Shown here piece after piece: positions 22,737-59,732 of a stretch of DNA of 64,000 nucleotides (the stretch's first letter is position 1; each line of letters begins with the position of its first letter). The notes under the pieces were generated by a model. That model was not told the DNA's origin, ran no database searches, and worked only from the letters and a program-made list of their open reading frames with translations. The position numbers and the translations under genes were made by a program. The DNA is from Proales similis (lineage: Eukaryota > Rotifera > Eurotatoria > Ploima > Proalidae), in assembly GCA_019059635.1 (NCBI GenBank), contig JAGVRJ010000004.1, positions 2,666,001-2,730,000 on the forward strand, in the 5' to 3' direction.

Positions 22737-25431
22737 ATGGATTCTTGGCTTCTCTTGCTCATGTTGAGCTACGTCAGATTGGCTTCTGCAATTCCTCATT
22801 GTAAGCAGCATCTCTTTTCGTTCGCTTCAGGTCAACTCTAAATTAGAACTAATTCAAGTGGCCACAGTTACTAATGGCGGTAATGCAATCAAACTATGGA
22901 ACGCTGAGACTCGCTCAACGGCTGGGACCCTCTCAGGACACTCTGGAGTTGTACGCGCAATGAAATACTTGAGCAACGGACGTTTGGCAAGCGTGGCCTC
23001 TGACGGCAATTTAAAAGTCTGGAACTTGAGCTCTGAGACGGCGGTGAATTATGTTGTCGGCGCCAATGTTTGGTGTGTTGAGGAACTCGGCAATGGAAAT
23101 ATTGTGACCGGAAATTCTCAATCTAAATTGCACGTTTGGGGCGCTTTAAATCGATTCATAACATTAGCGAGTGAAGTTAAGAAGATACTTGCTCTAGGCA
23201 CCAGTCGAATGGCCGCTGCATTGGATAATGGCGAAATTCAAATATTAGATCAGAATTCTGACTCGGCGGAGTACAATATTTCAAGTTATTCTTCGCCCGT
23301 ATCGTGCATGGTTCACGTAGGAAACAATCGAATAGCCAGTGGTTATGCCTCGGGAAGGATCACAGTCTGGTCAGACTTGACAAAAGCCGTCATTTGGTCG
23401 CATGTACATCACTCAGGCCAAGTGAACAGCATCGTTCCTGTTTCACTCACACAAATGCTAGCAAGTTCTAATGATCACACAGTCAAAATAATGAATATCC
23501 AAGATAATGGCGGAGTGAGTGCTAAGGTTTCCAGTAATAAACCAATGATGGGAATGGCTCTCATGCCCAGCAATAGAGTGGCCGTGGCAAGCATTGACAA
23601 AGATTTGAAAATAATAAGCCAAACTTTAGCAACGCAATCATTCTCACTCTCTAAAGAATTGATAGATGTGGCAATGGCAACACAAAATCTTTTGGCTGCT
23701 TGCGACAATCATGGATATATTTACGTTTGGAGGCAAAGCGATTTGGTTCATGAAGGAAATATCAATAGCGGACAAACGGCTTTGATGACGCCATTGAATC
23801 GAATAGGTAAAACACCAAGCAGGTTAAACAAAATTTCTGCAAATAATTAAAAAACACATAGAAAATCAGCTTTTGGAGCAAATTATACCGCCAGCCGTCC
23901 CGGAGACCACATCAGCTCCGACCACGATCCCGGAGACCACATCAACAGCAACCACGATCCCGGAGACCACATCAGCTCCGACCACGATCCCGGAGACCAC
24001 ATCAACAGCAACCACGATCCCGGATACCACAAAGGCTCCGACCACGATCCCAGTCGTGGACGAAAGTCATCTCTCTGAGGGAATCATACACCCAGCCATC
24101 CCAGAGACAACAACAGCTCCGACCACTGTCCCAGAGACTACAATGGCAGAGACAACAGAGGATCCGACCACGATCCCGGAGACTACATCAACAGCAACCA
24201 CGATCCCGGAGACCACATCAGCTCCGACTACGATCCCGGAGACTACATCAGCTCCGACTACGATCCCGGAGACTACATCAACAGCAACCACGATCCCGGA
24301 GACCACATCAGCTCCGACTACGATCCCGGAGACTACATCAGCTCCGACTACGATCCCGGAGACTACATCAGCTCCGACTACGATCCCGGAGACTACATCA
24401 ACAGCAACCACGATCCCGGAGACCACAAAGGCTCCGACCACGATCCCAGTCGTGGACGAAAGTCATCTCTCTGAGGGAATCATACACCCAGCCATCCCAG
24501 AGACAACAACAGCTCCGACCACGATCCCGGGGACCAGAACAGCGTCAACCACTGTCCCAAGGACCACCATGGCAGAGACAACCAAGGCTCCGACAACTGT
24601 CCACGAGACCGCTACAACGCCATCCACGGTAACTACGGCAACCACAACCACCACAACAGCAACCACAACCACCACAACAGCAACCACAACCACCACAACA
24701 GCAACCAATCTGCCCTCCGTCCCTGGTAAGCGCCTCCTTTGCTCGCCCATCCATCTCTGCCCCAAACTAATGCCCTCCTCCTCCAACCCTAAAAATCAAC
24801 AGTCGACCAAGAGTTTTCCATCTCCAGTCTGAGCGAGGCCGCTATCTCGACTCTGCTCGAGTCGGGCGCAGACATCTCCGTCTGCGTGATAAACTGCACC
24901 AACGCCGGCAACTGCTTCTACTCAGGCGGGCAGTTCTCTTGCGTCTGCGAGCTTCACTTTGCAGGCGACGCGTGTCAAATAGCCCAGCTGCAGTGCGCCT
25001 CCTCTCCTTGCTTGAACAACGGCACTTGTGTGGACCTGGTCAACAACAGCTCCTACTCGTTCGAATGCAAGTGCGGGCCGTACCACAAAGGCGCCAACTG
25101 CCAGATCGAGGTGGACGTGTGCGCGAACGAGACGTGCTCGGGCCACGGAAAGTGCCGGGCACAGAACTACGTGCCCAGCTGTGACTGCTTCTACAACTTC
25201 GAGGGCGACAGGTGCGAGAGCGAGTCCGAGCAGGGAAAGGCGGTGAAGGCGGTGGTGAGCACCGCGTCGATTGTGGCCATCGCATTCATGGTGCTGTTCG
25301 CGCTTCTCATCGTGGCCATGGACATATTCGAGTACTGCATCCGCGATCGGCCCAAGAAGAAGCGACGCGTCAAGAAACCCCCGAAGAAGTCGGCCTACAA
25401 ACTGGTCTATGTTAACCAGACGTCCGAATGA
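22737..25431 (+). CDS. WE1: secreted-type WD40 propeller - mucin-like linker - 3 EGF - TM receptor
   Basis: Exons 22737-22800, 22859-23806, 23862-24725, 24803-25431; 834 residues. Exon 1 encodes a signal peptide (MDSWLLLLMLSYVRLASA). Exon 2 encodes the propeller of about 316 residues, probably seven WD40-type blades (IKLWNAET, LSGHSGVVRAMKYL, LASVASDGNLKVWNL, family signature CVEELGNGNIVTG). Exon 3 encodes 288 residues of Thr/Pro repeats. Exon 4 encodes three EGF-like repeats (about residues 652-765), a TM helix (about 774-800) and a basic tail (KKKRRVKK) ending near LVYVN. All introns are phase 1. Topology predicts the propeller outside the cell, unusual for WD40. Gene order places it just after a 7TM gene. 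Function unknown; adhesion or recognition is inferred from architecture. I know no named family with this layout. Confidence 0.85.
23896..24600 (+). repeat. 30-bp coding tandem repeat encoding PETTS(A/T)(P/A)TTI
   Basis: Within WE1 exon 3. The unit codes for ten residues, PETTSAPTTI or PETTSTATTI, in two blocks. A larger unit containing VVDESHLSEGIIHPA occurs twice, starting at about 24051 and 24447, 396 bp apart. It encodes a densely O-glycosylatable stalk. Confidence 0.9.
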
Positions 25432-25905
25432 TCAATTTGATGAATCGTATTCTAAAATGAGATTCTTACCTTCTCAGAGCAAACTACCTTATATTTACCA
25501 AAACTTGAAACTTGCCCGATGAGAGTGTATTTGAAATGAATTTTCATTTTTTTGTTCTTTTTTAGTGATCATTAGAATGATTTTCATATTCATAAAAATA
25601 TCCGTCTGATTTAATTATAGAATTTAATTAAAATTAAAATAAAGAATCGCCAAGAGACATGAAAATTTGCATCGGCTGATTAAAATGCGCTTACACATCA
25701 GGGGCCCTATTTATATAGCTTGGCCTGGCCGGTCGATTGTTGTTTGAGCAGGGACGATGCCGCCATCGAATCGAGTGCGCTCTGCGACACATTAAATGGG
25801 TCTCGTAGCAACGACTGCGATTATGCCAGGTCTTCTTGGGCTATTTTAGGCAGCTGGGGTTTCTCTTGATCGCTTTATCGAACTCTTTTCACCACTGTTG
25901 TCAAT
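25432..25905. other. AT-rich spacer between WE1 and the galactosyltransferase
   Basis: Contains the WE1 polyA signal and, at 25711-25718, TTATATAG, a possible TATA element for the following gene. No coding sequence. Confidence 0.45.
25638..25643 (+). terminator. PolyA signal of WE1
   Basis: AATAAA about 200 bp after the WE1 stop codon. Confidence 0.5.
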
Positions 25906-27851: not shown

Positions 27852-29819
27852 ATGATGACGCACACTTTCAAATTGGTGATACTCGGCATCTGCTTACTGA
27901 GGCTTGGATCATGCACTTTGCGCAGTAACTCGATCTTAAAAGCATTCTTTTGCCAAATAACATTTAAATTTCTTGTTGTTGCTCAAGTTGCTGCAGCAAT
28001 CAGCGATTACGTTGAAGTCTGGGATCTTGTCTCGGGTCGATTGCTTTTTGATTTTGAACATTACGACGACATCAATGACATGAAGCTTCTGAGCAATGGC
28101 AATCTTGCCACAGTCTCAGAAGACGGACATACGCGAATCTGGAACCCAATTAGCGGGATTCTTGAAAATGATTTCAACTATGGCAAAGAGACGACCTGTG
28201 TTGAAGAATTGGGGAATGGATTTATAGTCAGTGGCTTGATCAACAATTCGGCTATGGTTCAAAATTCTCTGACTGGTCACCTAATTACGAGCATTGACTT
28301 TGGTCAGGCAGTTAAAAAGCTCTTGGCTTTGGCGTCCGACAAGATTGTGATCGGTGGACAACTCGGAAAGTTGGCCGTTTACGACCATGACTCAAATTCG
28401 CCGCTATTTTCAGTGTCCGGCTGTGAAGCATCGAGTAGTCCAGTCAAGGTCATTGCAAATGTGCACCACGGCAAGGTGGCCACCTCTTGCTCCTATGGAG
28501 AATTGATCGTTTGGAAGCAGAGTGATGGCGCACAAGTCTGGAACGGCTCAGACATTAGTGACACCATATACGACATTATCGCCTTGGACTCAGCTCTTAT
28601 GGCAACGGCCGGCGAAAATGGCCGCATAAAAATCTGGGCAATCAATAGTGGGACACTGGAGCGAACTCTTGAAATAGAGGGGGATCCAGTCATTGGCCTT
28701 CTTTTCTTGTCTGGTTCTAGATTCGCAAGTTTATCGCAACCGGACCAAATTCATGTGTGGCAAATGAGTGACTGGAGTTCTGCTCTGATGCCAGGGGTCA
28801 CGTCGACTGCCATAGGACTCGCTCTGATCAACTTGGATATAATAGCCTGTGCGGTGGCAAATAATCAGATCACATCATGGACCGTGGGAAATGGCACTGT
28901 CTACAAAACCATCACTACTGTAGGCTCAGTTAGACGAATAATCTCCCTTTCTCGGATTGAGGGTAAGAGAATCAGATTTGACAATTCAGTAACTCGATTC
29001 AAATGCCAGTCTTAAATCATAAACAGAAGAGACAACGACTTCCGTCCCAGAGACTACTACGGTAACCACAACCACCACAACAGCAACCAATCTGCCCTCC
29101 GTCCCTGGTAAGCGCCTCCTTTGCTCGCCCATTCTTCTCTGCCCCAAACTAATGCCCTCCTCCTCCAACCCTAAAAATCAACAGTCGACCAAGAGTTTTC
29201 CATCTCCAGTCTGAGCGAGGCCGCCATCTCGACTCTGCTCGAGTCGGGCGCAGACATCTCCGTCTGCGTGATAAACTGCACCAACGCCGGCAACTGCTTC
29301 TACTCAGGCGGACAGTTCTCTTGCGTCTGCGAGGCCCACTTTGCAGGCGACGCGTGTCAAATAGCCCAGCTGCAGTGCGCCTCCTCTCCTTGCTTGAACA
29401 ACGGCACTTGTGTGGACCTGGTCAACAACAGCTCCTACTCGTTCGAATGCCAGTGCGGGCCGTACCACAAAGGCGCCAACTGCCAGATCGAGGTGGACGT
29501 GTGCGCGAACGAGACGTGCTCGGGCCACGGAAAGTGCCGGGCACAGAACTACGTGCCCAGCTGTGACTGCTTCTACAACTACGAAGGCGACAGGTGCGAG
29601 AGCGAGTCCGAGCAGGGAAAGATGACCAAGACAGTGATGAGAACCACATCAATAATTGCAATCTTTGTAATGATTTCTTTCTTCGTATTTATCGTCGGCA
29701 TGGACCTTTTTAAGTTTTTCACGCGAACAAAATCCCAGCCTAAAAAGAGAAAATTAAAACCGAAGCCTGTTCGAGCGATCATTTTCAAGCCTGTTTACGT
29801 GAATTTCAAGCCCGAATAG
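27852..29819 (+). CDS. WE2: WD40 propeller - short linker - 3 EGF - TM receptor
   Basis: Exons 27852-27924, 27988-28962, 29027-29107, 29185-29819; 587 residues. Signal peptide MMTHTFKLVILGICLLRLGS. The first intron (63 nt) has no stop and can be read through, but splicing joins CTLR to IAAAISDY at the same phase-1 position as in all paralogues. Exon 2 is the propeller (VEVWDLVSG, HTRIWNPISG, TCVEELGNGFIVSG, GRIKIWAINSG, HVWQMSDWSS). The linker is only 27 residues. EGF repeats are almost identical to WE1 up to SEQGK, then TM and tail differ (IIAIFVMISFFVFIVGMDLF) and end PVYVNFKPE. Convergent with WE3. Confidence 0.83.
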
Positions 29820-30291: not shown

Positions 30292-33200
30292 TTAGTTTAT
30301 GTAAACCGGCTTGTACGTAGTTGGCGGTTGATTTTTGCGCGCGATTTTCTTCACCGGTTTTGGTTTCATGAGAAGAGTTGAAATATCTGCAAAAATTATG
30401 AGAAGAGCAAAAAAGGCCAAGATCGAGATGGCAACAATGGCCGACACCGTCATCACGTTTTGCACAGACTTTTTCTCATTCGACGCTATTTCGCAGTTCT
30501 CGCCCTCATAGAGGTAAAAGCAGCTGCATTTTGGCTGGAAATTGCTGGCTCGGCAAACTCCATTGTTAGAGCAGAGGATGCCGGCACATGCGTCGATCTC
30601 TTGTTCGCAGTTGGGGCCCGTATGAAATTCATCGCATTCGCATCGATAGGAGTAGGAGGTTTCGTTCACTAAATCGTGGCATGTGGCGTTGTTTAGACAA
30701 GGCCTCGACTCACACTTAAGCAAAGGCGTCTCGCATGCCTTGCCTCCATAGTCCGGTGCGCAGGCGCACTTTAACTCTCCCGACTCGTAAAAGCATGAGC
30801 CCAAATTAGAGCAGTTGACGATGCAATAGCTCAGATCTATCGGGCTGCTCATCAATACGCTCAGTGCTTGAATGTGAAGGTCGCCGAGAAGAAATCTTCC
30901 TTCTTTGACTGTTTTCATTTGGATTAGGAATAGAGACCGATTGAAGGGTCTAGAACTCAAACTACCCAAACTCTGCAAAACAGCCTCGACAGAGGTAAAT
31001 TTGTCCAGCATATCGCTCGTGTTTTGCGCTGATTTACTCGACTTGACTGTTGATGGTTCAGTCGAGGTCAATTCCGGTTGAGTGGAAGCCTCGGATGTGG
31101 TTTGCACTTTAAATTGAAATTCACTTACTACTTGATCTATGGTGTCTTGTTAAAACAGCTTACAAGACGGAATTTTCGATCTAATGCTAATCAACAGCTT
31201 GATCGGTTTGGGGTTTGCTAAAATTCTCATAACCCGGAATGAATCGAAAATATTGTACCGATAAATATTTCGATTTTCATCGCCAGTGGCAATGCTCCTC
31301 GGGCCAATCTGCGTCATACGAGTTAACTTGTGCGGATGAGTGATCTCAAACAAATACTTGGTCAAATTTTGAAAATTAAAGCCGATAATTGAGTTATTTT
31401 TAGTCGAAATAAGCATTGATTGGTTGAGGGGTAGTTGAATGTGTATTTGACTACTAGCACATAGATCAAGCTGAAACTGGACATCTTTTCCGTTGTTTAA
31501 ATCGACCAGGACTGTGCCAATTGAATTGCAAGCAGCGAGTGTGTTCAAGTTATTTAAGGTATATCCAGTTCTGGCTAAGTCTATAATCGCCGCGCCCTCT
31601 AATCTCGATTGAGTCCACACTAGGCTCATGTTGGTCATGATCCATCCGTGAACTTGCCCGTCTTCGGATGCACTCACCAGATGAGTGCTGTTCACTGCCA
31701 GCAAATGAGTAATTGCATATCGCCCTGGGGTTTGTGATTGGCATTTGTCCACCTGCCTGACGAGCGTTATCGTTCCATCACCCAAACCGACCACAAACTC
31801 TCCTTGATTGACAGCCAGCAACGCAGTTATGTTTTGTTCAAATGTGTAATTCTGAATATCGTTCGGCTCAAACCACTTGCGTACGACTTGATCGCTTCCG
31901 GCTGTGAGCAAGAACAAGTCAGTCAAGGCGAGAAACAGAACACTTGCACCGTGGTTGCCCTCGATGCGTTCCAAAGTATCTAACTGCCAGACTATCACTT
32001 TGCCGTCTGATGCGCCACTCGCAAGAGAGTCCAGCTGCCTATTATATTCGATTGCATTTATCGTAGCCTCATGTCCGGTGAGAACTCTGACCGGACTTGG
32101 CTCACCTAGCCACCAAAGCTCAATTGTCTTAGCGTCTCTTTGAACCGAGGCCACTTGGACAAGTAGAAACGAATTTTATTTTTTCCTCGACAAGAGAGCG
32201 GCACATTGCTTACAACTGACAGCCGTCTTGCCGTTTGGCAAGCTTGTCTCATCTTGAGTTTCTGACGCCAAAGTCGTCAACTGCTGACCTTCTGAAGGAA
32301 GGGCGGAACATTCTGTTTGGATGTTTGAACTCAAGTTCATCACTTGTTTGAATAAATCGATTTCTGACAAGAGCAAGATGAAAGTCGCGCAAATAAACAA
32401 CAATTAGGAAAATATTGCTCACCGATTGTATTCAGACTGACTAAAAGTCGTAGCGCGCCTTGAAAAAATCGTGGCGATTGACTTAGATCATTTTTGTTCC
32501 ATAAATAGGCCGGTGTTCCAATCGTGACCATTAAGTCGCCGGTGGCATGAGCCATACCGTTTATACTCATCGTCACGCTTTCAATTTCAGTCCATTGTTG
32601 CGTAATCAAATTGAACAATTTCAACTGACCGCCACTTAGAGCAATCATCAAGTGCTCAGGATCCATCAGTAGCATGTCGGTTATTTCTTTGCCCGCAAAC
32701 TCCTTGGAGTTATTCAAAGCTCCGTTTTGAGTGTTCAAAATTTGAATTCGACCATTTCGATCAGCGCTCGCCATCGAAAAAGGGCCTAGAGCTTGAATAT
32801 CAGAAATAGGCGCCTTTGAATCTGAATCTCTGTGCCATAACTTGCGACCATCGATAGCGTTCCAGACAATTAATTTTCCCTGCGAGTCACCGCTGGCGAT
32901 CCAATCGACGCCGACTCGAGATAGAGCCTCTATTCGGCCTGAGTGTCCGTCTATGCGGTGAACGGGCTCGAGGGCGTAGCAGTCTCTTATCAGTACCAGA
33001 CCACCGAATATGTATCCAACTACGAACATGTCAAAGCCGAACGCCAAAACTTTTGTTATTTCGTCCGAATAGACAGCAATCGAGCGGTTCGAAGGCCAGA
33101 GGAGAACTTTCCCATCTTGGCCGCCCGATATGACTTGCCCGTTACCCAGTTGGTCTATACACTGAATCTTACTATCGGTCGAATACCAAGCTTCCAAGTC

Positions 33201-33496
33201 TGCTGTTTCGACGTTCCAGATTTTAATCATCTTATCATGAGAGCCACTGGCAAGTCGTCCATCCAATAAATACTTTAAAGCGCTCACGTACTCGGTGTGG
33301 CCGGTCAGTGATTGGGATCTGTTTCCAGAATTGAAGTCGAAGACGAATATTTCATTCGTATGGGCGACAGCGGCGACTAACCAGAGTGGACAATATTTTG
33401 ACAAGAAAGAATTTGACACAAGCCAAGCTTACCTTTATCGGCATGCGCGGTTGCGCTCACAAGAAAAATGCCAAGAAAAGCCAAATAAGCTTTCAT
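30292..33496 (-). CDS. WE3: double WD40 propeller - 3 EGF - TM receptor
   Basis: Exons 33496-33433 (signal peptide MKAYLAFLGIFLVSATAHA), 33376-32423 (propeller 1), 32363-32214 (linker), 32153-31164 (propeller 2), 31106-30966 (linker), 30908-30292 (EGF-TM); 971 residues. The last intron (57 nt, no stop) may be retained, giving 990. All junctions are phase 1. Propeller 1: LTGHTEYVSALKYL, LASGSHDKMIKIWNVET, CIDQLGNGQVISGG, LIVWNAIDG. Propeller 2: LTGHEATINAIEY, LASGASDGKVIVWQLD, then more divergent blades. No second signal-peptide exon or TATA box precedes propeller 2, so this is one gene. The EGF region is diverged from WE1. The tail ends exactly at KPVYIN. Divergent from WE4, convergent with WE2. 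Confidence 0.78.
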
Positions 33497-34535: not shown

Positions 34536-36528
34536 ATGCATTTTGGCCAAGTTTTTCTAATCTTTTCGGCGCTTTATTCGCACAGCTCAGCGATCGATCA
34601 TGGTAAGAAATCAATCCATTTGGCTCTTTTTTTACTTGAATTCAGTGGAAATATTCAAGTTGCGACTACAAGCTCTGCAGGGCTTCAAGTGGCCGTCTGG
34701 GATCTAATCACAACCAACAAGCAGCATACTTTTTTTCATTCAAACCAGGTGAACGAGATGAAATATTTCAGCGGAGACAGGATAGCGACAGCATCTCAAG
34801 ATGGCCACATTCGAACATTTGATTTGAACTCGGGAGGCGCAGGCATTGATTACAATCACGGCGGGGCATTGAACTGCGTTGAGGAGCTCGATAATGCGTT
34901 CATTGCAACTGGAGGAACAGACGGGAAAGTGGTCATTTGGAATCCTTCTGACGGCTCAAAGTCACTTGATCACAGTTTCGGCCAAACGGTGGTTAAACTC
35001 ATGGCCATTCAAACCAACAGGGTTGTAGCCGGAGGAGGCAATGGAAAGATTGCGGTCTATTCAGTCAGTGCCGAGCTGTTCATTGTCACTGGTTGTCAAG
35101 GAGGAGGAAACATCATTGTGGCACTGGCACAGGTGGGCGCAGGCAGAGTGGCAAGTTCGTGCCAAGACGGGAAGTTGATCGTCTGGAACAACAACGACGG
35201 CTCGCATGTTTGGAGCACAACAATCGCCTCAAACAAGGCCCGCGATATCATCACCCTAGACTCGAGCCGTATTGCTACGGGCCATCAAGACGGGAAGATA
35301 AAAATATGGACGACGAGCAATGGCACATTAATTCACACAATCAATGCTCATAGCAGTCAAGTGAACGATTTGCTCTGGCTTCCTGGTTCGAGGTTCGCAA
35401 GTGCCTCAAATGACCACAAAGTTAGAGTGTGGCAGATGAGCGATTGGAGCTCAACTGACATGCCAGGAGTGGGCTCAATTGCAAATGAGCTTGCATTGGT
35501 CACTTCAGATCTCATCGCAGCGGCTCTAGAGGGAGGCGAAATCAGAACGTGGACTTTTGCCAATAGCACTGACTTTAGCTCAATACCTTTCATATTCCCA
35601 GTTCGAAGAATAATAGCTCTGAGAGTCCAAATATCAGGTAATCCAAGAAATTTATTGATAGAATAGAAAACCTTATCGACTTGTGTGAACAATTCAAGCG
35701 GACGCCCTAACAAATATTGAAAGCACTTTATCAAGTGAATCGCCCACTTCTCTCTCAGAGGCGACGACAGTCACCCAAACCACAACCACCACAACAGCAA
35801 CCAATCTGCCCTCCGTCCCTGGTAAGCGCCTCCTTTTTCTCGTCCATTCTTCTCTACGCCAAACTAATGCCCTCCTCCTCCAACCCTAAAAATCAACAGC
35901 CGACCAAGAGTTTTCCATCTCCAGTCTGAGCGAGGCCGCCATCTCGACTCTGCTCGAGTCGGGCGCAGACATCTCCGTCTGCGTGATAAACTGCACCAAC
36001 GCCGGCAACTGCTTCTACTCAGGCGGGCAGTTCTCTTGCGTCTGCGAGCTTCACTTTGCAGGCCACGCGTGTCAAATAGCCCAGCTGCAGTGCGCCTCCT
36101 CTCCTTGCTTGAACAACGGCACTTGTGTGGACCTGGTCAACAACAGCTCCTACTCGTTCGAATGCCAGTGCGGGCCGTACCACAAAGGCGCCAACTGCCA
36201 GATGGAGGTGGACGTGTGCGCCAACGAGACGTGCTCGGGGCACGGAAAGTGCCGGGCACAGAACTACGTACCCAGCTGTGACTGCTTCTACAACTACGAG
36301 GGCGACAGGTGCGAGAGCGAGTCCGAGCAGGGAAAGGCGGTGAAGGCGGTGGTGAGCACCGCGTCGATTGTGGCCATCGCATTCATGGTGCTGTTCGCGC
36401 TTCTCATCGTGGCCATGGACATATTCGAGTACTGCATCCGCGATCGGTCCAAGAAGAAGCGACGCGTCAAGAAACATCAGAAGAAGGCGGCCTTCAAACC
36501 TGTGTACGTTAACCGGCCGTCCGAATAA
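34536..36528 (+). CDS. WE4: WD40 propeller - linker - 3 EGF - TM receptor
   Basis: Exons 34536-34602, 34660-35637, 35699-35821, 35900-36528; 598 residues. Signal peptide MHFGQVFLIFSALYSHSSA. Propeller blades: LQVAVWDLITT, IATASQDGHIRTFDLNSG, NCVEELDNAFIATGGTDGKVVIWN, GKLIVWNNNDGSHVW, IATGHQDGKIKIWTTSNG, FASASNDHKVRVWQMSDW. The linker is about 41 residues ending in a Thr run shared with WE1 and WE2. The EGF-TM exon is nearly identical to WE1 including the tail KKKRRVKK; it ends KPVYVNRPSE. The start of exon 3 (acceptor before the CG at 35699) is the only frame-consistent choice I found. Function as for WE1. Confidence 0.83.
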
Positions 36529-36582
36529 AAGACTTGTGTATGTGTGTGTGAGACTTAATTGACCAACGACTGGATGAGATCA

Positions 36583-36588
36583 AATAAA
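36583..36588 (+). terminator. PolyA signal of WE4
   Basis: AATAAA 55 bp after the WE4 stop, in the 81-bp convergent gap to the Rac-like gene. Confidence 0.6.
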
Positions 36589-38470: not shown

Positions 38471-38511
38471 TTTCCCCTCTTTTTCAGCAGCAAACAGAGT
38501 CAAAGAGTTTA

Positions 38512-40746: not shown

Positions 40747-42260
40747 ATGAGCCGAAACCGGAAAAGAAACGTTAAAATTTTTCTGCTGCTGTCGACGTTC
40801 AGCGGCTTGTTTTTGATTTGTACCGCACAGACTGCGCCTTATGGTAAATTTTATTCAAACAAATCATCTTGATCAAAGAAATCAGCAAACACGACTTAGT
40901 GGGTGTGGTCCCAAAAAATACGAGAGACATTCAAATATGGAATGTCGAGACCGGAATTAAATGAGAAATGTAAGAAATGAGAAAACTCGGCTTTTTCAAA
41001 GTGGCTGTGGTCCCAAAAGGTTCAGCAGACATACATGTATGGAACGTCGAGACTGGAACTATGATCAGAAAATTACAACATGGCGGTGTTAATCAAGTAA
41101 AAGCTCACGAAATGACGGATTTGGCCCTTCTGCCCGGAGAAAGAGTTGCAATTGTGTCGAAAGATAGTGAACTAAGAGTGGCCCAGTTCGGAAGCTCTTT
41201 CTCTGTTACAAATTACACTGATCCAATTGACGAAATTTACGGAGTAGTTTTGGCTACTTCTAATCTGATTGCCTTGATAGGCAAAAACCCCAATGTGCAT
41301 GTTTACAATTTGAATAACTTTAATCGGGAACGAATGTTTAAAGATGCCAACATTCAGAATTCAATGATAGCTGCACTAAATTATTTAGGTAAGCTCGTAA
41401 AGTAAGAGTTTGTGTACATACCACTTGATTGAATTGACACTGAAGATGAAAACCTACGGGAAGCATTAGACGGAAATAACCAGTTCACTGTACCCAATAC
41501 GCCGACTGCTTTGATTGGAGTTACGACGACGACACAGGCATCGTCTGGACCGATAACTTTTTTAATTGGTGAGACTAGAGAACCGACGATAAAAAAAGTT
41601 TTTCTCAATGTCGGTTAAGCAAACCAAGTCTTCATGGTCGAACAGTTGGACGATCAGTTCGTTGCTTCCCTCCTCGAATCAAACGCCGACTTTTCGGTTT
41701 GCGTAGTCAACTGCACAAATGCAGGAAGCTGCTTCTACTCTGGATCCAAGTTTTCGTGCTTGTGCGAGCCTAGCTACGCCGGAGATGCCTGTCAACTGCA
41801 TCTCCTTCAATGTGCTTCGAGTCCGTGTCTGAACAACGGGACTTGCCTCGATCTCGTCAACGGCACCTCCTACTCTTACACATGTGAATGCGGCCAGTAC
41901 CACGAGGGAGCTAATTGCCAGCTAGAAGTCGATGTGTGCGCTGGAGTCACATGCTCCAATCATGGGGTGTGCAAGGCCAAGGACTTTGTGCCTGTCTGCC
42001 ACTGCTTTTACATGTACGAGGGTGAGAACTGTGAGATCGAGTCTCAACAGCGAAAAGTTGCCAAGATTGTAATCAGCACTGCCTCGATTGTTGCCATTGT
42101 GTTCATAATATTTTCTGCAATGGTTATAGTCGCATTAGACATTTCTCATTATCTTTGTCGCGAAAAGCCCAGAAAAGTCAAACGCAAAATCAAAAAGATG
42201 ACCAAAAAGGTTATATTCAAGCCTGTTTATATCAATCGAACCACTGTGACCGAGAATTGA
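40747..42260 (+). CDS. WE5: shortened WD40 - linker - 3 EGF - TM gene
   Basis: Exons 40747-40843, 41002-41388, 41446-41568, 41629-42260; 412 residues, frame intact. Signal peptide region MSRNRKRNVKIFLLLSTFSG is paralogous to WE6. Exon 2 has only 129 codons against 324 in WE6: it joins the first blade (VVPKGSADIHVWNVETG) to the last blades (MTDLALLPGERVAIVSKD) by an in-frame loss of about 195 codons near 41095, so a closed propeller is impossible. EGF repeats, TM and tail (KPVYINRTTVTEN) are complete. The TATA box of WE6 is altered here. Either a decaying gene or an EGF-TM protein with a minimal ectodomain. Confidence 0.6.
40900..40964 (+). pseudogene. Relic copy of the first WD40 exon start inside WE5 intron 1
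   Basis: After an AG acceptor, the sequence reads VGVVPKNTRDIQIWNVETGIK and then TGA. It repeats the beginning of the functional exon that starts 102 bp later at 41002. It is a duplicated exon head that can no longer be used. Confidence 0.65.
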
Positions 42261-42437: not shown

Positions 42438-45400
42438 TCAAGGAATGTATTTATAGCGTTTTTCAGCTTTGCCCTTTTTGCCTTTTGGCTTTTTAGGTAC
42501 ATTTGGCTTGTCGGGGCGCATGAACAGCTTGGAAATGTCCAAGGCAAGCGTGGTCACATACACAGACACGATCATAATTATGGCGATGATCGCAGACACC
42601 GATATCACGCTCTTGATCGTCTTGGCTTCGTCCGATTCTATTTCGCATCGCTCGCCCGAGTAGAGCGGGAAGCAGCGGCACTGCGTCGCTCCTGACTTGA
42701 GCGCTTCGCATTTTCCATTTGAGGAGCAGTCGACGCCCGCACACAAGTCAGGCGCATTCTGGCAACTGGCTCCTGTGAAGCCAGCTTCACATTGACAAGT
42801 GGCGTGGGTCGAGTTCACTTGAGAACAGTTGCCCCCGTTGAGGCAAGCAAGCAGACTGCAAGGTCGTCTGTCTTGTTGACACGAGTCGCCAAAGAAGCCT
42901 GCAACGCATGAGCACACATAGCGTGTTCCCAGTAGCTGACACGCTCCTTGATTGCTGCAGTTGGCCAAACAGCCGCTCAAGTCCTGGTCGTCACTCTCCA
43001 GAATCGAAGTGAGTGTGGGCGAGTCAAGCTCTGCGATGTTCACACCGGGTCCCTGGGTCGGTTGAGTTGTCGTCTGTGTTGTTTGGGTGGATTCCTCTGC
43101 AATGTGGACTTTTACTTAACAAAGCTTTCGTGTCGGTTTAAAATGAAAAGCCGAACCATTTGGGATAAACACAGTAAGTGTTGCGCTGTCAGCGTACGGG
43201 CTAGAAGCCTCTAGCGTGAAATTGCCAGAAAAAGAGTACTGCTTGACAACAGAAACAGTCCCATCGGTCAAGCTGAAAGCGAATGGAGATGAGCCGTCAT
43301 TGAAATCTAACGAAACTGGGAGGCTCTGGTTGAATGTAACCGCTCTCAGTCGGCAAGTCAACTCCTTCTCAGCCGAAAGCTGGCAATCAAGAAATAATGC
43401 AGGCCCGTCTTTGAGTTCGGAAGAAAAGACTTCAGCGAGGGCATGAATGCAATTTTGTAGAATCCATCCTTACTTAAGATCCTGTAGATTGGAAAGGCAT
43501 TTTGACTTGAGCAGGTTTCGTAAAAGCCGGGCCAATTTTGCATTTCACAATTGCATCTGTCTGTGTCTACCCTGGATGCTTGACTTGGCTTTGTATTTGT
43601 ACACTCACACCTATTTCTGTAATCGTGTTGTTTCAGGATCAAGACCAACACTTTTGTTTCTCTTTGTTTGTTCGTTTAACTTACTGATTATCCATCACAA
43701 AAAAGGTCATTTTCAAATGCCGGCACATGGCAGCGCACCGATTCAAGTCTTGGGATTCGAGTAGGATTCTTTGTTGCATCTGACCCGAGCTGAAGCAGCC
43801 CTCGAAGGCAGTCCATTTTGATTCGAGCGTGAGATTGGGATTATTGCCTGAGACAAAACAATTGTTTCAGTCCTAATGCTTCCAATTAAGCTTGCCTACC
43901 TGTGTTTTTCAAGATCCTGCTGTCATGAGCATAATACCCGCCACAGATCTGGCTTGCATTGCCTGGGCATTTCGTCCAGCAGTAGTCTTCGCTCGGTGGA
44001 TGCAGTTCTGACAATTGCATACTCCGGCCACAATAACATAAACTTGTTTCATTTCGATCAGTCTCATAGTAACCTTTTGGAGTTTTGTCGATTCCTTACT
44101 TGCCTCTTAGGCCAGCCACTGTAAAATTCCGCTGTCGGCATGTGTCTCTACAGAGTTCAAGCGAGTTTTCATTCACATCTCGCATGTTCCATTCAAACTC
44201 TCGATAATTTGAGCTCACGGCACATTTTGTCTCAAATGGAGCCGCGACTGTTGACGGTTAGATTTTATTTAAACAAGAGATAGCGATTTGTTGAAGAATA
44301 GAAATGGCCCTCTTACCTTGAGTGACCGTGATGCCCTGAAATTGAGCGCCACCGCACATTTGAGTTGAATCACCTGCGCATTTAAATGAACATCTTGACT
44401 CATCAACTTCTTTGATGATACCATGCGACCGTGCGCACATGCAGAGGTTTCTGCAAATGACCATGATGTTCAAGCACATTGATTCAACTGCAGCCACAGT
44501 CGATGTCTCACCCTTCTATCAATAGCGAGTAGAGGTAATTGCCTGAAGAACAAAATCCGGCGCAGGAATCGGGCTTCATGGGGAAAAAACTGGTGTGATA
44601 GATCCAGGAAGAAGGAGTCCAATCTTGGGAATAGCAGCCAAGTTCATCGTAAAGCACTTGGTTTTAATAAGCATCTTTAAATTTGAACGTGCGAGAATTC
44701 AAGCGAAGTGTACCAGAGAAGTGCACTGTTTGATTGGCACTCATCACATTGGCCTGGTTAATCATGCGCGCCTGCACCAGGAATCGGCCATGCTGCGCGT
44801 AAGTATGTCTCACCGAGATCGCCTCGTCTTTCAAGTTGAACTGCTCAGGCTGTCCAACTTGATCACCGAAATCGAGTTCTATTGCTTCCAATCGGTCGAA
44901 TGTGATGGCTCTGAGGGTGCAGTTGACCTGCCTCATTGGCATCTGCTCACATTCGAGCTGCAAGTGCTGGGTGTCTAACGAAAGCATTTCAAGCACAATC
45001 CGATTAAGTCACAAGTGTGCAGAGTCACTCACAATGCACTCGGTAGACCGGAAAGGCCACTGGGCTCTGTGAAGAATCGCCGCAATAGAAGCCAGGCGAA
45101 TTAGGACATTCATTGTCACAGTGCTGTTTGTCCAGCTCTCCGGTTGGCGTCGAATCGCTGCAATAGCAAAAAAAGACCGGTCGTCTTCAGATATTTGATT
45201 CAAAAACGTGCTTTCAAAAGCTCTCGAGTCAAGTGATTACTCGAAATTAATTTGAGAAAATTGCAAGCCGACAGTCCTGCAAGCAGCTGGACAGTCGTTC
45301 ATGTTGCTCAAATGAGATATTCTGATTTGGTGAGTGAATGAAGAAAAACAGCCCTCGAATGTGATCCATTTGTGCTCTTTGTCAAGTAGACTATTGTTGC

Positions 45401-47837: not shown

Positions 47838-50157
47838 ATGAGTCGAAATCGGAAGAATTTTGAAATTGGCATCTTGATTTCAACCTTGAGTGGCTTATTT
47901 TTGTTCTGGACGGCAGAAGCTGCGTCGCATGGTAATCACCTAGAAATAGCTCTTTTTGATTACAGGCCTCTGCAAAACATTGTTTTGTCCAAGTGGCTGT
48001 AGTTCCCAAAGATTCAACTGGCATTCAATTATGGAACGTCGAGACAGGAACTATTCTGATGACTTTGTATCACAACTCGGGAGGTAAGGTTCAAGCTCTC
48101 AAGTATATGAGCTCTGGCCTGTTGGCGGCCGGAGACAAAAAGGGCGAAGTGATAGTCTGGGACGTAACCATCGGAAATAGAGAAGCATTTTACCAAACCA
48201 ACAGTGAGGTCGAAGCGGTTGAGGAGCTCGGCAATGGCCGAGTAGTATCAGGACACAAAAATGGACAAATCATCAGTTGGCAGCCTTCACTGAATTTGAT
48301 AAAATATCATAACACAGAGATTAAGAAGTTGCTTGCAGTTGAACTCAATCAAGTGGTGGTCGGAGATAAGGACGGAAATCTGATGATTTTCCGAGAGACG
48401 AGCAGCACGGCGATTTACACGATGAGCGGACTAAGCAAGGAAGTAACAGTATTGACTCACGTCGGCCAAGGTCGAATAGCTGCTGGAGATGACCATGGAA
48501 ACATTGTTGTCTGGTCGCACAGCACTCAGACGTTATTGTGGAACCAACGAGTTCATAACAAAAAGGTCACTGACATTGTGGCCTTGAGCACGGTGAGAAT
48601 GGTGAGCAGTTCGGAAGATAAAAGTGTTGACATCATGAACATTGCGGACGGAAACAGCCAAAGTCAAGTTTGTTCAAGCGATGAAGAAATGACGGACTTG
48701 GCTCTTCTGCCCGGAGGCAGAGTAGCCATTGCGTCAATAGATGATAAATTGAGAGTTGCCCAGTTCGGAAGCTCTACTTCAATCACATCAAGGAGTCAGC
48801 CAGATGCTGATATTACTGGAGTTGTTTTGGCTACTCCCGATCTAATAGCCCTGATTGACAAAGAACCTCGTGTGCATGTTTTTAATCAAGGCGATTTAAA
48901 TTGGAGACGGAAGTTCACAAGTGGAAGCGAAGAATATATGATGATAGTTGCCCTGAATCATTTAGGTAAGCTCAAAAAAGGGTTTATTGTGCCTTAAAAG
49001 CTAAAGCGAATTGATACTGAAGAAAGCCAACTCCTCGAAGAAATATTTACAACAAGTACCCCGACCCCAACACCAACCCCAGCACCAATCATGACCACGA
49101 CGCCAACCACAACTACGACGCCAACCACAACTACGACCACAACACCATCGCCAACTACGACCACAACCACAACCACAACTACGACGCCAACCACCACACC
49201 GACCACAACCACAACCGCAACTACGACGCCAACCACAACTACGACCACAACCACAACCACAACTACGACGCCAACCACAACCACAACCACAACATCATCG
49301 CCAACCACAACTACGACCACAACACCATCGCCAACTACGACGCCAACCACAACTACGACGCCAACCACAACTACGACGCCAACCACAACCACAACCACAA
49401 CCACAACATCATCGCCAACCACAACCACAACTGCGACGGGAACGATTTCCTCTTTAACTGGTGAGTCGAGAGAACAGATCAGGACGAGTGTTTTCTCTAA
49501 GCCGATCTAGCAAATCAAGCGTTCAAGGTCGAACAGTTGGACGATCAGTTCGTTGCTTCCCTCCTCGAATCAAACGCTGACTTTTCGGTTTGCGTAGTCA
49601 ACTGCACCAATGCAGGAAGCTGCTTCTACTCTGGATCCGAGTTTTCCTGCTTGTGCGAGCCTCATTACAGCGGAGACGCCTGTCAACTGCATCTCCTTCA
49701 ATGTGCTTCGAGTCCCTGCATGAACAACGGGACTTGCCTCGATCTCATCAACGGCACCTCCTATTCTTACACGTGTGAATGCGGCCAGTTCCACGAGGGA
49801 GCTAATTGCCAGCTAGAAGTCGATGTGTGCGCTGGAGTCACATGCTCCAATCATGGCGTGTGCAAGGCCAAGGACTTTGTGCCCGCCTGCGACTGCTTTT
49901 ACATGTACGAGGGTGAGAACTGTGAGATCGAGTCCGAGGGCCAGAAAGCGGTCAAGGCAGTGGTGAGCACTGCCTCCATAGTGGCCATCGTATTCATGGT
50001 CTCTTTTGCGATATTCATAGTCGCTTTAGACATCCTTGAGTATTGTTGTCGCGAGAAAACCAGAAGATTAAGGCCAAAGCGTAAGACCACTCGGCGAAGG
50101 AAAAGCGCTATATTCAAACCGGTTTACATAAATGAAGTCACAGTGACCGAAAATTGA
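47838..50157 (+). CDS. WE6: WD40 propeller - Thr/Pro stalk - 3 EGF - TM receptor
   Basis: Exons 47838-47931, 47994-48965, 49023-49460, 49520-50157; 713 residues. Signal-anchor-like N-terminus with basic start (MSRNRKNFEIGILISTLSG). The propeller exon has 324 codons: IQLWNVETG, LLAAGDKKGEVIVWDVTIG, AVEELGNGRVVSGHKNGQIISW, GNIVVWSHSTQ, SVDIMNIADGN, MTDLALLPGGRVAIAS. The 146-residue linker is almost only Thr and Pro. EGF exon: NCTNAGSCFYSGSEFSC, CASSPCMNNGTC, CAGVTCSNHGVC and CDCFYMYEGENC, then TM IVAIVFMVSFAIFIVALDI and a basic tail ending KPVYINEVTVTEN. Convergent with WP2, like WE5 with WP1. Confidence 0.85.
49061..49440 (+). repeat. ACC/ACA/ACG-rich coding repeat (Thr/Pro stalk of WE6)
   Basis: Irregular short tandem of ACNACNACG-CCA codons giving runs of Thr with spaced Pro. 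It is a candidate mucin-like O-glycosylated stalk and a slippage-prone region. Confidence 0.9.
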
Positions 50158-50197
50158 CTCCGTCGTAATCGGAGCCACTTTAAACTATTACCCAGAT

Positions 50198-50203
50198 AAT
50201 AAA
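50198..50203 (+). terminator. PolyA signal of WE6
   Basis: AATAAA 40 bp after the WE6 stop codon, in the convergent gap to WP2. Confidence 0.6.
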
Positions 50204-50320
50204 AAGTTTAAAGAAACTATTATCATGACATTTTTCAAAAACGTTTTTTTGAATATTTGATTTTTTGTTTCTTTTGGTTTGGAGAATTTGAAAAAAATCG
50301 AATAATTGACTTGAGAATAA

Positions 50321-53300
50321 TCAAGGAACGTATTTGTGCCGTTTGCCATTAGCCTTGCCCTTTTTGCCTTTTGGCTTTTTAGGTACCTTTGGCTTGAACT
50401 TCTCGGGACGCATGAAGAGTTTTGAAATGTCCAAGGCAAGCGTGGTCACATACACAGACACGATCATAATTATGGCGATGATCGCAGACACCGATATCAC
50501 GCTCTTGATCGTCTTGGCCTCGTCCGATTCTATTTCGCATCGCTCGCCCGAGTAGAGCGGGAAGCAGCGGCACTGCGTCGCTCCTGACTTGAGCGCTTCG
50601 CATTTTCCATTTGAGGAACAGTCGACGCCCGCACACAAGTCAGGCGCATTCTGGCAACTGGCTCCTGTAAAGCCAACTGGACACTGACAAGTGGCGTGGG
50701 TCGAGTTCACTTGAGAACAGTTGCCACCGTTGAGGCAAGCAAGCAGACTGCAAGGTCGTCTGTCTTGTTGACACGAGTCGCCAGAGAAGCCAGCAGCGCA
50801 TGAGCACACATAGCGTGTTCCCAGAAGCTGACACGCTCCTTGATTGCTGCAGTTGGCCAAACAGCCGCTCAAGTCCTGGTCCTCACTCTCCAGAATCGAA
50901 GTGAGTGTGGGCGAGTCAAGCTCTGCGATGTTCACACCGGGTCCCTGGGTCGGTTGAGTTGTCGTCTGTGTTATTTGGGTGACCGTGGTCGATGTCTCAC
51001 TTGTTTGACCAGTTGTCTCGATCTGTCCTTGAGTCGTGGATTCATCTGCAAAGTCATTATTACTTTAGATTATCTTAAGCTGCCTTTTTAGAAGCCGAAA
51101 TACACTAACCTTCTCGAGTGCTCGTTTCCCGCGGATGTTCGCCAACAGATGACTCTGTGCTTCCTCGAGACTTTTCTTGATCGGTTGAAGTCGGCCATTC
51201 AAGAATCGCATACTGAAGTGATTGACTGCTGGTCTTTATTTCTGTCGTTTCAGCCCACAATTTGCTCGTTGTAAACTCGTCTTGGTAACTTGATCGGGCA
51301 CTTGGACTTGCTGAAGCCGACGCTTGCACACTCTCGCTCATACTCGTTGTTGTTCCTTCTATTTTTTATTTTTTAAATTATTAAATCTGAACTCAGGTGA
51401 TCAAATGCAAAACCTGATTCAAAGCTGATTGCCTGTTCGGCTCTCACAACGGGATGATTCAACATTTGAGCCGAAACAATGAATATTCCATTTGTTTGAA
51501 ATGTAAACACTTTTTCCAGAATCTCGTCCTCCATCTCAAACACAATCGGACCATCATCAGCAACAACCTGAATTTTCTCCTTTTGGCCGAATGTGATCGC
51601 TTTGATTGTGCAATAAACAGTTTTGAATGAACTTGCTCTTGAAAAGAGCTCTAGGAGAACGGAGAATGACCTCCGAACTAACCTGAGTAGACGCTCATGG
51701 TGAATAAATCGCTTCCGCCGCAATTCCATTCTCTGTCGCCAGCACATGCTTCGTCGCATCTGCCCTCGTCTATATGTCGAATGGGCATAATCGATGCCGA
51801 GCATAAGCATGTCCATCTTTGATAATTAGAAAAAACTTGAAAATTTTTCCCAATTTCTCGAGCAATGCTTACTGTCGCCTGATAATAGCGAAGCGCTTTC
51901 CACGCGCAGCACACACCCCGGCACAAGTCTTCCAATCGAGACTGTAGTTTGCAGAATGCACCAGTTGAGGCAGCGAAATTAAATTGAACAAATAGCAGCC
52001 AGAATTGGTTAGTTGATCTTGACCATCAGCTTGAAATTTGACTCGTTAAAAAGGAAACGAGAGATGCCTTTTACCGTTTAGAATGGTCACTCGAGTCTCG
52101 GCAAACACAGACGGTTCAGCAGTCATCTGCGCTCTAACAGTGTACTTTCCCATTTGGGCGTACGAGCGAACAAATTCGATTGTTTGGTCGTTCAAGATAA
52201 AGTCAAGTGAAGTCGAAAAGTCGCCGAATTCAACCTGAATAGACCGGTTTTGACCGATCGTAATGGCTTGCAATGTGCATTCTATCGCTGTTTTGTTCAG
52301 ATTGGCGCATTCCAAACGCAAGTGATCGGAGTCTGCTCGATAAGGACCGAATTGTTTTGAAATGGAAAAAGACAATGCCCAGAAGGTTACCGTGAATTCG
52401 ATAGACTGGTGAATACAAAACATCCGAAATCCACCAGCCGCAAACGTGGCTACTCGGCACCGAGCATTTTGTTCTGCATTTTTCAGGCTCTGCTCGGACC
52501 AAAGAATCTAGGTCACTTGGACACCAACAGTTCCTATATGATTTACGTTTGTCTTTTTGTCCTCTTCTATCAGAGTCACACATTTTCCTACCCTCCAGCA
52601 GTGGTGACAAATGGCTTTAAATTGCTTTTACAATACGAGCTGCAGACGATTAGATTGTTGTCGCCGGCCATCACTCGCGTGTCGATTTGGCGGCCAACAG
52701 ATGTGAAACATCCTTCAACAGTCAAATGCTCGAGCACTCGATTGAAATTGCTTCCTGAATGCATTTTAGAAAGCGCTAGCAAATGTGAAGAGAGTGAACT
52801 GTTTCAAATCGTTCTACTTTGAATGCTGAGGTGAGACTGAATTTCTAGCTCTTCTCCCCCGCAATTTTGAGAGCTGTTTCCTGCACAACGTTGGTCACAG
52901 CCGCTATCCAGTTTCCTCAGTGCAGGATAGTTATTCACACAAATGCACGACCTGAACTCGAAATTGTGATGAGTCGGTATCTAGTGCTGGCGATAATTCA
53001 ACTCACTTTTCTGAAATGGCGGCGTAAGTAAAATTGACGCATTTAATTACGCACTGGTCTACTGTCATTGCTTCAATCTCATGCTTATTTTTATTAAAAT
53101 CATGGCCAAGTCGGTTCATCAAATGACAGCCCAAATGTGACTTTGAGGTTACTTTAAATTAAGTTTAGTCTGCGTATTTCGTCTGATTTTAGCTGCCGAC
53201 TGATAATTTCACCTGTATAGACGTCAACTGCTGGGCCCCTAAAACCCGAACAGCTTTGTCCTGAATCGCCTTGGCAATTTCCTCGACATGCTTGATTGCC

Positions 53301-57747: not shown

Positions 57748-59732
57748 ATGAGCTTTATGCTCTCAATATTCGGCTGCTTGCTTTTTATTTTCATGGCAGA
57801 GGCTGTACCGCATGGTAATGATCTTGAAACAGCTCTTTTGGATCTTAGGCATCTACAAGCATGATTTTTTTTAAGTGGCTGTGGTTCCCAAAGATTCAAC
57901 TGGAATTCAATTATGGGACGTCGAGGCCGGATTCCTCCAGATGACTTTACATCATCCTGCTCGAGTTCTAGCTCTCAAGTATCTGAGTGCTGGCCACTTG
58001 GCGGTTGGCTACGACTGTGGTGAAGTGCTCGTCTGGAACATAAACACGGGAGCTGAAGTTGCTACTTATGCTTCCAGCAGTGAAGTTCTAGCAGTTGAAG
58101 AGCTTGGCAATGGTCATGTTGTCTCGGGTCACAGAAATGGACAGATCTTCAGTTGGCATCACTCGCCAAACTTGATAAAAAATTATAACAATGATATTAC
58201 AAAGCTGTTTGCAGTCGATCTCGATCAAGTGGTGGTCGGAGATGAGGACGGAAATCTAATGATTTTCCGAGAGACAAGCAGCACGCCGGTTTACACAATT
58301 ACGGGGCTGAGCGACGAAGTGACAGTATTGAGTCACGTCGGCCAAGATCGAATAGCTGCTGGGGACAGGAATGGAGAAATTGTTATCTGGTCGCACAGCA
58401 CCCAAGTCAAACTGTGGAACAAACGACTTTATAATGATCGGGTTACTGACATTGTTGCCTTGAACAGCATGAGTATGGTGAGCAGTTCGTTCGACAAGAG
58501 GGTCGACATCATGAACATTGCGGACGGAAACAGTCAAAGTCAAGTTTGTTCAAGCAATCAAGCAGTGACGGACTTGGCTCTTCTGCCTGGAGGACGAATA
58601 GCCATTGCATCGCTGGATGGAAGGTTAAGAGTGGCCCAGTTCGGAAGCTCTATTTCGATCTCAATTTACAATCAACCAAGAGACAGAATTTACGGAGTAG
58701 TTTTGGCTACCCCTGATCTACTTGCCCTGATTGACGATGAACCTTCTGTGCATGTTTTTAATCAAGGCGATTTAAATTGGATAATGAAGTTGCGAAGCGG
58801 AAGCGTAGAGTATAGGATGATAGTTGCTCTGAATCATTTAGGTAAGCAAGAAATGGGAGGTTTGCGGTTTGAATGGTGAATTGAATTGACTCTGAAGAAA
58901 AACAACTCTTGGAGGAAATATTCGTTACAACAACTGTGATGACACCGGCAGCTACCAATTCAACTTTTGGGACAACAGCAGCTAGCAGTTCCACCTCTGG
59001 GGCAGTGCAGATGTTGCCTCCGCTAATTTCCTCAATAACTGGTGAGTCGAGAGAAGCGATCTGAACGATCTTTTTCTCTAAGCCGATCTAGCAAATCAAG
59101 CGTTCAAGATCGAACAGTTGGACAGTCAGTTAATTGCTGCTCTCCTCGAATCAAACGCTGACTTTTCGGTTTGCGTTGTGAACTGCACCAATGTAGGAAG
59201 CTGCTTTTACTCTGGATCCGAGTTTTCCTGCTTGTGCGAGCCTCATTACAGCGGAGACGCCTGCCAGCTGCATCTCCTCCAATGTGCTTCGAGTCCGTGT
59301 CTGAACAACGGGACTTGCCTCGATCTCATCAACGGCACCTCCTACTCTTACACGTGTGAATGCGGCCAGTACCACGAGGGAGCTAACTGTCAGCTAGAAG
59401 TCGATGTGTGCGCTGGAGTCACATGCTCCAATCATGGGGTGTGCAAGGCCAAAGACTTTGTGCCCGTCTGCGAATGCTTTTACATGTACGAGGGTGAGAA
59501 CTGTGAGATCGAGTCCGAACGGCAAAAAGTGGCCAAAGTTATCATCAGCACTTCCTCGACTGTAGCGATTGGATTCATGATATCTTTCGCAATAATTATT
59601 CTCGGGATGGATATCTTCAAATATTGTGGCCCAGAGAAAAGCAAAAAGACCAGAGCGAAGCCCAAGAACATTCAAATCAAGAAAAAGGTCGTTTTCAAGC
59701 CTGTCTATATCAATCAAACAAGAGATGCTTAA
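57748..59732 (+). CDS. WE7: WD40 propeller - linker - 3 EGF - TM receptor
   Basis: Exons 57748-57814, 57876-58841, 58898-59041, 59101-59732; 602 residues. Signal peptide MSFMLSIFGCLLFIFMAEA. The propeller is closely related to WE6 (VVPKDSTGIQLWDVEAG, LAVEELGNGHVVSGHRNGQIFSWH, GEIVIWSHSTQ, RVDIMNIADGN, VTDLALLPGGRIAIASLD). The linker is 48 residues, Thr/Ser-rich without tandem repeats. The EGF exon is near-identical to WE6 up to CEIESE; TM and tail differ (TVAIGFMISFAIIILGMDIF) and end KPVYINQTRDA. It stands apart from WE5/WE6 beyond WP2 and has no WSC-PKD partner downstream. Confidence 0.85.

Follow-up and report, generated by a model that had tools for sequence, protein, structure and literature searches.

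Introduction

WD40 repeats are usually intracellular, as in ODA16, Notchless/Rsa4 and Fbw7, and WD40 propellers are treated as scaffolds inside the cell. Here we consider seven neighbouring genes (WE1 to WE7) of the rotifer Proales similis, in which a WD40 propeller is very probably carried outside the cell on a transmembrane (TM) protein. The genes lie in a stretch of 64,000 nucleotides (C4:2666001-2730000, contig JAGVRJ010000004.1) that we call the window. The WE proteins share fold and repeat family with the WD40-repeat proteins just named, but are predicted to start with a signal peptide and to contain EGF repeats as well as a TM helix. In them the propellers are predicted to be the heads of surface receptors and, at other loci of the genome, they are apparently secreted. 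At the level of the sequence this domain order is real, and it is unusual.

In the LDL receptor and the LRP proteins, which are type I TM proteins with short tails, a six-bladed YWTD propeller is combined with EGF repeats. As predicted from sequence, the WE proteins are likewise of type I with a beta-propeller beside EGF repeats, but theirs is a WD40 propeller, eight-bladed in the copy modelled. Teneurins also have an extracellular propeller and EGF repeats, and the EGF repeats of the WE family match teneurin EGF models; however, teneurins have a type II orientation, an NHL propeller and a YD shell, whereas the WE proteins are predicted to be type I (N-terminal hydrophobic signal, TM helix near the C-terminus) with a WD40 head. 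The LGI/EPTP proteins are secreted propeller proteins as well, with EPTP repeats and leucine-rich repeats; they are not known to have EGF repeats or a TM helix.

A parallel of another kind is found in the clustered protocadherins of fugu and zebrafish. A diverse outer ectodomain stands there on a membrane-proximal part that is homogenised by gene conversion and has a raised GC content at third codon positions (GC3), and for fugu the conversion was argued with the same GC3 test that we use below (PMC1852091). The likeness to WE consists of tandem surface genes with a converted membrane-proximal region and a diverse outer region. The protocadherins differ by their cadherin repeats, by constant exons that are shared within the alpha and gamma clusters, and by their role in the nervous system; the WE proteins have a WD40 head and an EGF block, and in our gene models each gene has an EGF-TM-tail exon, and so a TM helix and a tail, of its own. 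Among the papers listed in literature searches on an extracellular WD40/EGF/TM architecture, rotifers included, there was no report of it, and this negative goes no further than these searches. A rotifer lectin paper does not mention WD40 (PMC8878817).

Gene structure and domain content

Six WE genes (WE1, WE2 and WE4-WE7) lie on the plus strand, and their spliced models have four exons, encoding a signal peptide, a propeller, a stalk, and three EGF repeats with a TM helix and a basic tail. WE3, alone on the minus strand (30292-33496), has six exons, two of them separate propeller exons. The stalk measures 27 codons in WE2 and 21 in WE4; WE1 and WE6 have long Thr/Pro stalks. All 23 introns modelled are GT-AG and in phase 1, with sizes of 50-158 nucleotides; despite the homology of the genes, by which the introns are not independent, and the picking of splice sites by eye, the common phase exceeds chance. 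In WE2 and WE4 the signal peptide and the propeller stay in one open frame even unspliced, and in three other genes the first start codon of the propeller exon does not come before residue 34 (WE1) or 22 (WE6 and WE7). Hydropathy gives each of the seven proteins a hydrophobic stretch at the N-terminus and, close to the other end, a strong TM helix, after which comes a tail with a net charge of +5 to +11; additional, weaker hydrophobic stretches are found inside the WE2 and WE3 propellers.

The earlier note on this DNA had described seven genes with one complete propeller exon each between signal peptide and stalk. WE1, WE2, WE4, WE6 and WE7 follow that order, but seven complete propellers can be ruled out, as WE3 has two and the propeller of WE5 (40747-42260) is cut to 129 residues, while upstream of it the remnant of a first blade runs into a stop. 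WE5 is perhaps a decaying copy.

The WD40 model PF00400 (cut-off 27 bits) is matched by the propellers of WE4 (69.9), WE1 (50.1) and WE2 (33.3) and by both propellers of WE3 (WE3a, 56.1; WE3b, 44.9). WE7 (26.4) and WE6 (23.3) fall just under the cut-off and match other WD40 propeller models; the truncated WE5 propeller has no PF00400 match in Pfam. Every last exon, in the seven WE genes as in the two neighbouring WSC/PKD-type genes (WP1 and WP2, described below), matches the EGF model PF00008 above its cut-off. The WE7 EGF repeats are similar to the EGF repeats found in Delta-like 1 and Notch. Of the teneurin EGF models, EGF_TEN is below cut-off throughout, and EGF_Teneurin is above it in WE3, WE5, WE6, WE7, WP1 and WP2, not in WE1, WE2 and WE4. 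At E<=0.001, Pfam gives no YWTD repeat (Ldl_recept_b) for WE1, WE2, WE6, WE7, WE3a and WE3b, nor is there one among the best 25 of 35 matches of WE4, and LDL-A, cadherin and NHL are not among the Pfam matches listed for the propeller and EGF exons.

The structure was modelled for one copy, WE4. Using an alignment of its propeller with six paralogues of the window, AlphaFold2 gives a model with a mean predicted local distance difference test score (pLDDT) of 91.8, a predicted template modelling score (pTM) of 0.88 and 32 strands, and therefore eight blades. The closest solved structures are WD40 propellers, including those of ODA16, Notchless/Rsa4, Fbw7 and designed eight-bladed proteins. A motif of the third blade, which had been taken for a private signature of the family, does not survive as such: WE1, WE2, WE6 and WE7 show it exactly, WE3a has a close version and WE4 a partial one, and WE3b and the truncated WE5 lack it; it equals the usual WD40 consensus of a-strand, turn and b-strand, and similar turns recur elsewhere within the same propellers.

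The case for extracellular WD40 propellers does not depend on the splice models alone: an apparent signal peptide and WD40 repeats also occur together in single open reading frames (ORFs), which support export independently of splicing. Among the relatives of the WE4 propeller, nine ORFs outside the window (L047, L051, L055, L056, L061, L063, L065, L066 and L068) join WD40 repeats in frame to an apparent signal peptide, with PF00400 above cut-off in all of them. The scan for such ORFs counted a permissive motif and also produced false rows, so only rows checked with Pfam are used; it missed L051 and L066, where the signal peptides were read by eye. In L051 (910-2112, about 1.88 Mb on C4) one ORF runs from an apparent signal peptide through a WD40 propeller to a TM helix at the C-terminus, with no splicing needed. 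L066 (751-1956) has, again in one ORF, an apparent signal peptide, a PAN_3 domain (24.6 bits, cut-off 21.1) and then a propeller. Proales similis seems to have extracellular WD40 proteins not singly but as an entire set. Not all relatives are exported: in L049 and L050 a signal peptide is not seen. By eye, L061 and L046, L060 and L064 (C4, 1.39-1.41 Mb) have cysteine-rich N-termini like that of L066. PAN/apple-like N-termini beyond L066 were considered and set aside, as Pfam gave no match in L061, L046, L064, L047 and L056 and only a weak defensin match in L065.

Mosaic evolution of the EGF block

In the pairs formed by WE1, WE2 and WE4, synonymous differences (pS) reach 0.76-0.81 in the propeller, that is saturation, and 0.04-0.06 in the EGF block. 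In the TM-tail segment pS is saturated again (0.68-0.76) in the pairs with WE2 and is 0.08 in WE1/WE4. Among the same three genes intron 3, which adjoins the EGF exon, is 91-97% identical, introns 1 and 2 35-59%. Identity drops sharply where the stalk exon ends, and again where the third EGF repeat ends or within the tail. The composition is also uneven, with a GC3 of 0.83 in the EGF block versus 0.42-0.50 in the propellers; in WE2 it is raised only in the block (EGF 0.83, tail 0.53, propeller 0.49). WE5, WE6 and WE7 have the same pattern in a weaker form, with pS of 0.14-0.20 in the EGF block, 0.37-0.53 in the propeller and 0.56-0.74 in the tail.

The pattern extends to related genes that carry the same EGF-TM-tail part, which we call the chassis. 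In a cluster at 0.2 Mb on C4 (8 of its 10 chassis places compared) 27 of 28 pairs have a lower pS in the EGF block than in the adjoining upstream sequence (p<0.01), and in a cluster of four genes at 1.2 Mb on C3 the same holds in all six pairs, the pairs of each cluster having genes in common and hence not being independent. The exceptional pair of the C4 cluster, L027/L031, is alike along its whole length. With this signature in three clusters, the EGF block has, to judge from the sequences, very probably been homogenised between neighbours by gene conversion or an equivalent exchange. The view that the propellers diverge while the whole EGF-TM part is kept alike needs narrowing: it is right for the three EGF repeats, but the TM/tail diverges again in five of the six pairs tested.

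Apart from this, WE6 has at the start of its TM segment (exon 4) a single stretch of 40 columns with 0.85 identity to WE1 exon 4 and to WE4, where WE6/WE7 identity is only 0.62; possibly this was a short separate exchange. Elsewhere in the window, two tandem genes that by eye resemble AMP-binding enzymes (11550-11957 and 13415-13825, minus strand) have a near-identical C-terminal ORF and differing N-terminal ORFs, which hints at a second case of local homogenisation.

The chassis family in the genome

The assembly searched has 15 contigs and 32,716,893 bases. With the EGF-TM exon of WE1 as query, 44 places are found at E<2e-23. Contig C4, which makes up about 9% of the genome, has 30 of these. 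Chassis ORFs were read at 41 of the 44 places, with EGF repeats, a TM helix (by eye) and in most cases a basic tail. At least 12 chassis genes carry WD40, namely the seven WE genes and L016, L017, L018, L020 and L025; the count is a lower bound, several loci having been read only a short way upstream. A signal-peptide-like exon is seen by eye, without modelling, in all three outside WD40-EGF-TM loci that have enough upstream DNA. Further chassis genes have WSC/PKD-like ectodomains, mostly recognised by eye with Pfam matches under the cut-off, or unnamed ones: Pfam names no ectodomain in L028, L029 and L032, and gives only a sub-threshold WSC in L033. The position of the chassis places relative to chromosome ends was looked over by eye, and we claim no enrichment there.

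Propeller variation and function

Combining the architecture with its evolution, we propose on balance that the WE proteins are probably type I cell-surface receptors of Proales similis with a propeller head and a converted EGF block, serving recognition or adhesion. By sequence and prediction, they have a signal peptide and, as outer head, a WD40 propeller (of eight blades in the modelled copy); below the head come a stalk that varies greatly in length, the three EGF repeats, a single TM helix and a basic tail with a tyrosine motif close to its end. Comparison shows the EGF block, with the preceding intron in WE1, WE2 and WE4, to be copied among neighbours by gene conversion or an equivalent exchange, while the propellers and most tails go on diverging. 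We infer that the top face of the propeller, the usual binding face of WD40 propellers, binds a ligand that differs among the family members, that the stalk and EGF repeats may act as a spacer, and that the tail may anchor or signal. The likely task would be recognition of, or adhesion to, microbes, partners, gametes or matrix; that such a role is built on ligand diversity has about even chances.

When the strands and loops of the WE4 model are used as a map, the differences between WE6 and WE7, the closest pair, fall at 35 of 66 positions in top loops (the d-a and b-c loops), 16 of 56 in bottom loops and 43 of 185 in strands, top and bottom being assigned via strand order in the WD40 topology. 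The top loops differ more than the bottom loops (p=0.010), and the excess is seen at nonsynonymous sites (p=3e-4), not at synonymous ones (p=0.26), with all these p-values coming from several tests, uncorrected and without a control family. In the tails, Y-x-[N/P/S] occurs within the last 16 residues of 30 of 41 chassis ORFs, versus 3.9 by shuffling. The form Y-x-N, which resembles a Grb2-type SH2-docking motif, is found in 14 of the 41, including all seven WE tails (as Y-[V/I]-N), with P or S in its place in 16. The tail tyrosine motif offers a lead to a putative docking site, which for Y-x-N may be of the SH2 type.

The reservations just given for the top-face comparison count against the receptor proposal, and they are not alone. 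The top-versus-bottom contrast is weaker, though in the same direction, in WE2/WE4 (p=0.10) and WE1/WE6 (p=0.04). The ratio of nonsynonymous to synonymous substitution rates (dN/dS) is below 1 in every site class of WE6/WE7, the sole pair tested, with 0.57 in the top loops, so adaptive diversification by positive selection is not demonstrated. The tail motif is absent from 11 of the 41 chassis ORFs, which as related genes are not independent. The propeller of WE5 is truncated, and the signal peptides were called by hydropathy and by eye. The window propellers are also not clearly enriched in N-glycosylation sequons, with 0.76 per 100 amino acids (18 in 2382) versus 0.83 in a mixed comparison set. 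As a proof of export this comparison is uninformative, for 5 of its 12 ORFs (L055, L056, L059, L063 and L065) themselves have an apparent signal peptide, with 23 sequons in 2242 amino acids versus 21 in 3057 for the other seven.

How do other explanations fare? The WD40 exons might be separate intracellular WD40 genes, with the signal-peptide and EGF-TM exons belonging to other genes, as one might suppose from the usual location of WD40 repeats. This is highly improbable, since exon order and phase are repeated in all seven genes, in WE2 and WE4 one frame runs through both signal peptide and propeller, a usable start is missing from the propeller exons of WE1, WE6 and WE7, nine single ORFs elsewhere join an apparent signal peptide to WD40, and all three outside loci with enough upstream DNA have, by eye, a signal-peptide-like exon. 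The likeness of the EGF blocks, in turn, might come from strong purifying selection, EGF repeats being structurally constrained, or from very recent duplication of whole genes, which L027/L031, outside the window, looks like. However, synonymous sites and intron 3 of WE1, WE2 and WE4 are nearly identical, which argues for gene conversion and not purifying selection, next to a saturated propeller and, in the pairs with WE2, a saturated tail; and GC3 of WE2 is elevated in the EGF block alone. We give selection or whole-gene duplication hardly any probability.

The WE proteins might also be structural or adhesive components of the cuticle, the glycocalyx, or a ciliary or foot-gland matrix, with the propeller as an interchangeable scaffold whose variety is drift after duplication, without specific recognition. 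The different ectodomain types on one chassis, the dN/dS below 1 in each class of WE6/WE7 and the long Thr/Pro stalks of WE1 and WE6 all suit such proteins. The clustering of WE6/WE7 substitutions on one propeller face is not obviously predicted by drift, though without a control family it is not decisive, and we regard this alternative as rather unlikely. The earlier note's idea of a diversified recognition or adhesion system draws support from the mosaic evolution, the top-face substitutions of WE6/WE7 and the wider family; its weak side is that dN/dS nowhere exceeds 1 in that pair.

More tentatively, and at somewhat less than even odds, rotifers may have exported the WD40 propeller as the variable head of a large modular superfamily, in which a converted carrier of three EGF repeats and a TM helix bears exchangeable ectodomains (WD40, WSC/PKD and unnamed ones); in an animal that lacks adaptive immunity, this superfamily would work as a repertoire for recognition diversified in the germline. 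Exchangeable ectodomains on a conversion-maintained stem would be a testable model of surface diversification in an invertebrate with a 33-Mb genome, and the top faces of the propellers would be defined targets for ligand screens.

Gene models and neighbouring genes

The exons of the WE genes are collected in Table 1 with the last ORFs of WP1 and WP2. In WE3 a model with an 18-nucleotide intron was dropped in favour of a 57-nucleotide intron with a downstream acceptor and one extra intron.

Table 1. Positions in the window of the modelled WE exons and of the chassis ORFs of WP1 and WP2
Feature	Positions	Strand	Evidence or remark
WE1 exon 1, signal peptide	22737..22800	+	
WE1 exon 2, WD40 propeller	22859..23806	+	Pfam
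WE1 exon 3, long Thr/Pro/Ser stalk	23862..24725	+	
WE1 exon 4, EGFx3-TM-basic tail	24803..25431	+	Pfam EGF, hydropathy; C-terminal end YVNQTSE
WE2 exon 1, signal peptide	27855..27924	+	
WE2 exon 2, WD40 propeller	27988..28962	+	Pfam; stays in frame with signal peptide without splicing of intron 1
WE2 exon 3, short stalk	29027..29107	+	
WE2 exon 4, EGFx3-TM-tail	29185..29819	+	Pfam EGF
WE3 exon 1, signal peptide	33433..33496	-	
WE3 exon 2, first WD40 propeller (WE3a)	32423..33376	-	Pfam
WE3 exon 3, linker	32214..32342	-	
WE3 exon 4, second WD40 propeller (WE3b)	31164..32153	-	Pfam
WE3 exon 5, stalk	30966..31106	-	
WE3 exon 6, EGFx3-TM-tail	30292..30908	-	Pfam EGF; C-terminal end PVYIN
WE4 exon 1, signal peptide	34536..34602	+	
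WE4 exon 2, WD40 propeller	34660..35637	+	Pfam, AlphaFold2 model
WE4 exon 3, short stalk	35759..35821	+	
WE4 exon 4, EGFx3-TM-tail	35900..36528	+	Pfam EGF
WE5 exon 1, signal peptide	40747..40843	+	
WE5 exon 2, truncated propeller	41002..41388	+	129 residues
WE5 exon 3, stalk	41446..41568	+	
WE5 exon 4, EGFx3-TM-tail	41620..42260	+	Pfam EGF
WE6 exon 1, signal peptide	47838..47931	+	
WE6 exon 2, WD40 propeller	47994..48965	+	matches WD40 propeller models
WE6 exon 3, Thr/Pro stalk	49023..49460	+	
WE6 exon 4, EGFx3-TM-tail	49511..50157	+	Pfam EGF
WE7 exon 1, signal peptide	57748..57814	+	
WE7 exon 2, WD40 propeller	57876..58841	+	matches WD40 propeller models
WE7 exon 3, stalk	58898..59041	+	
WE7 exon 4, EGFx3-TM-tail	59092..59732	+	Pfam EGF
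WP1, last ORF of WSC/PKD-type gene, EGFx3-TM chassis	42438..43115	-	upstream exons perhaps to about 46300
WP2, last ORF of second WSC/PKD-type gene, same chassis	50321..51064	-	upstream exons perhaps to about 54900; WSC/PKD by eye

WP1 and WP2 had been put forward as WSC-PKD-EGF-TM genes. The chassis of three EGF repeats and a TM helix is common to both, but the ectodomains are less firmly assigned: unspliced pieces of WP1 give one PKD and two WSC matches, all under the Pfam cut-offs, and in the WP2 region, where WSC and PKD were read by eye, the two pieces tested have no Pfam match. The block from WE1 to WE4 is flanked by two ORFs that by eye resemble G-protein-coupled receptors, at 21277-22305 on the plus strand and 37487-38713 on the minus strand.

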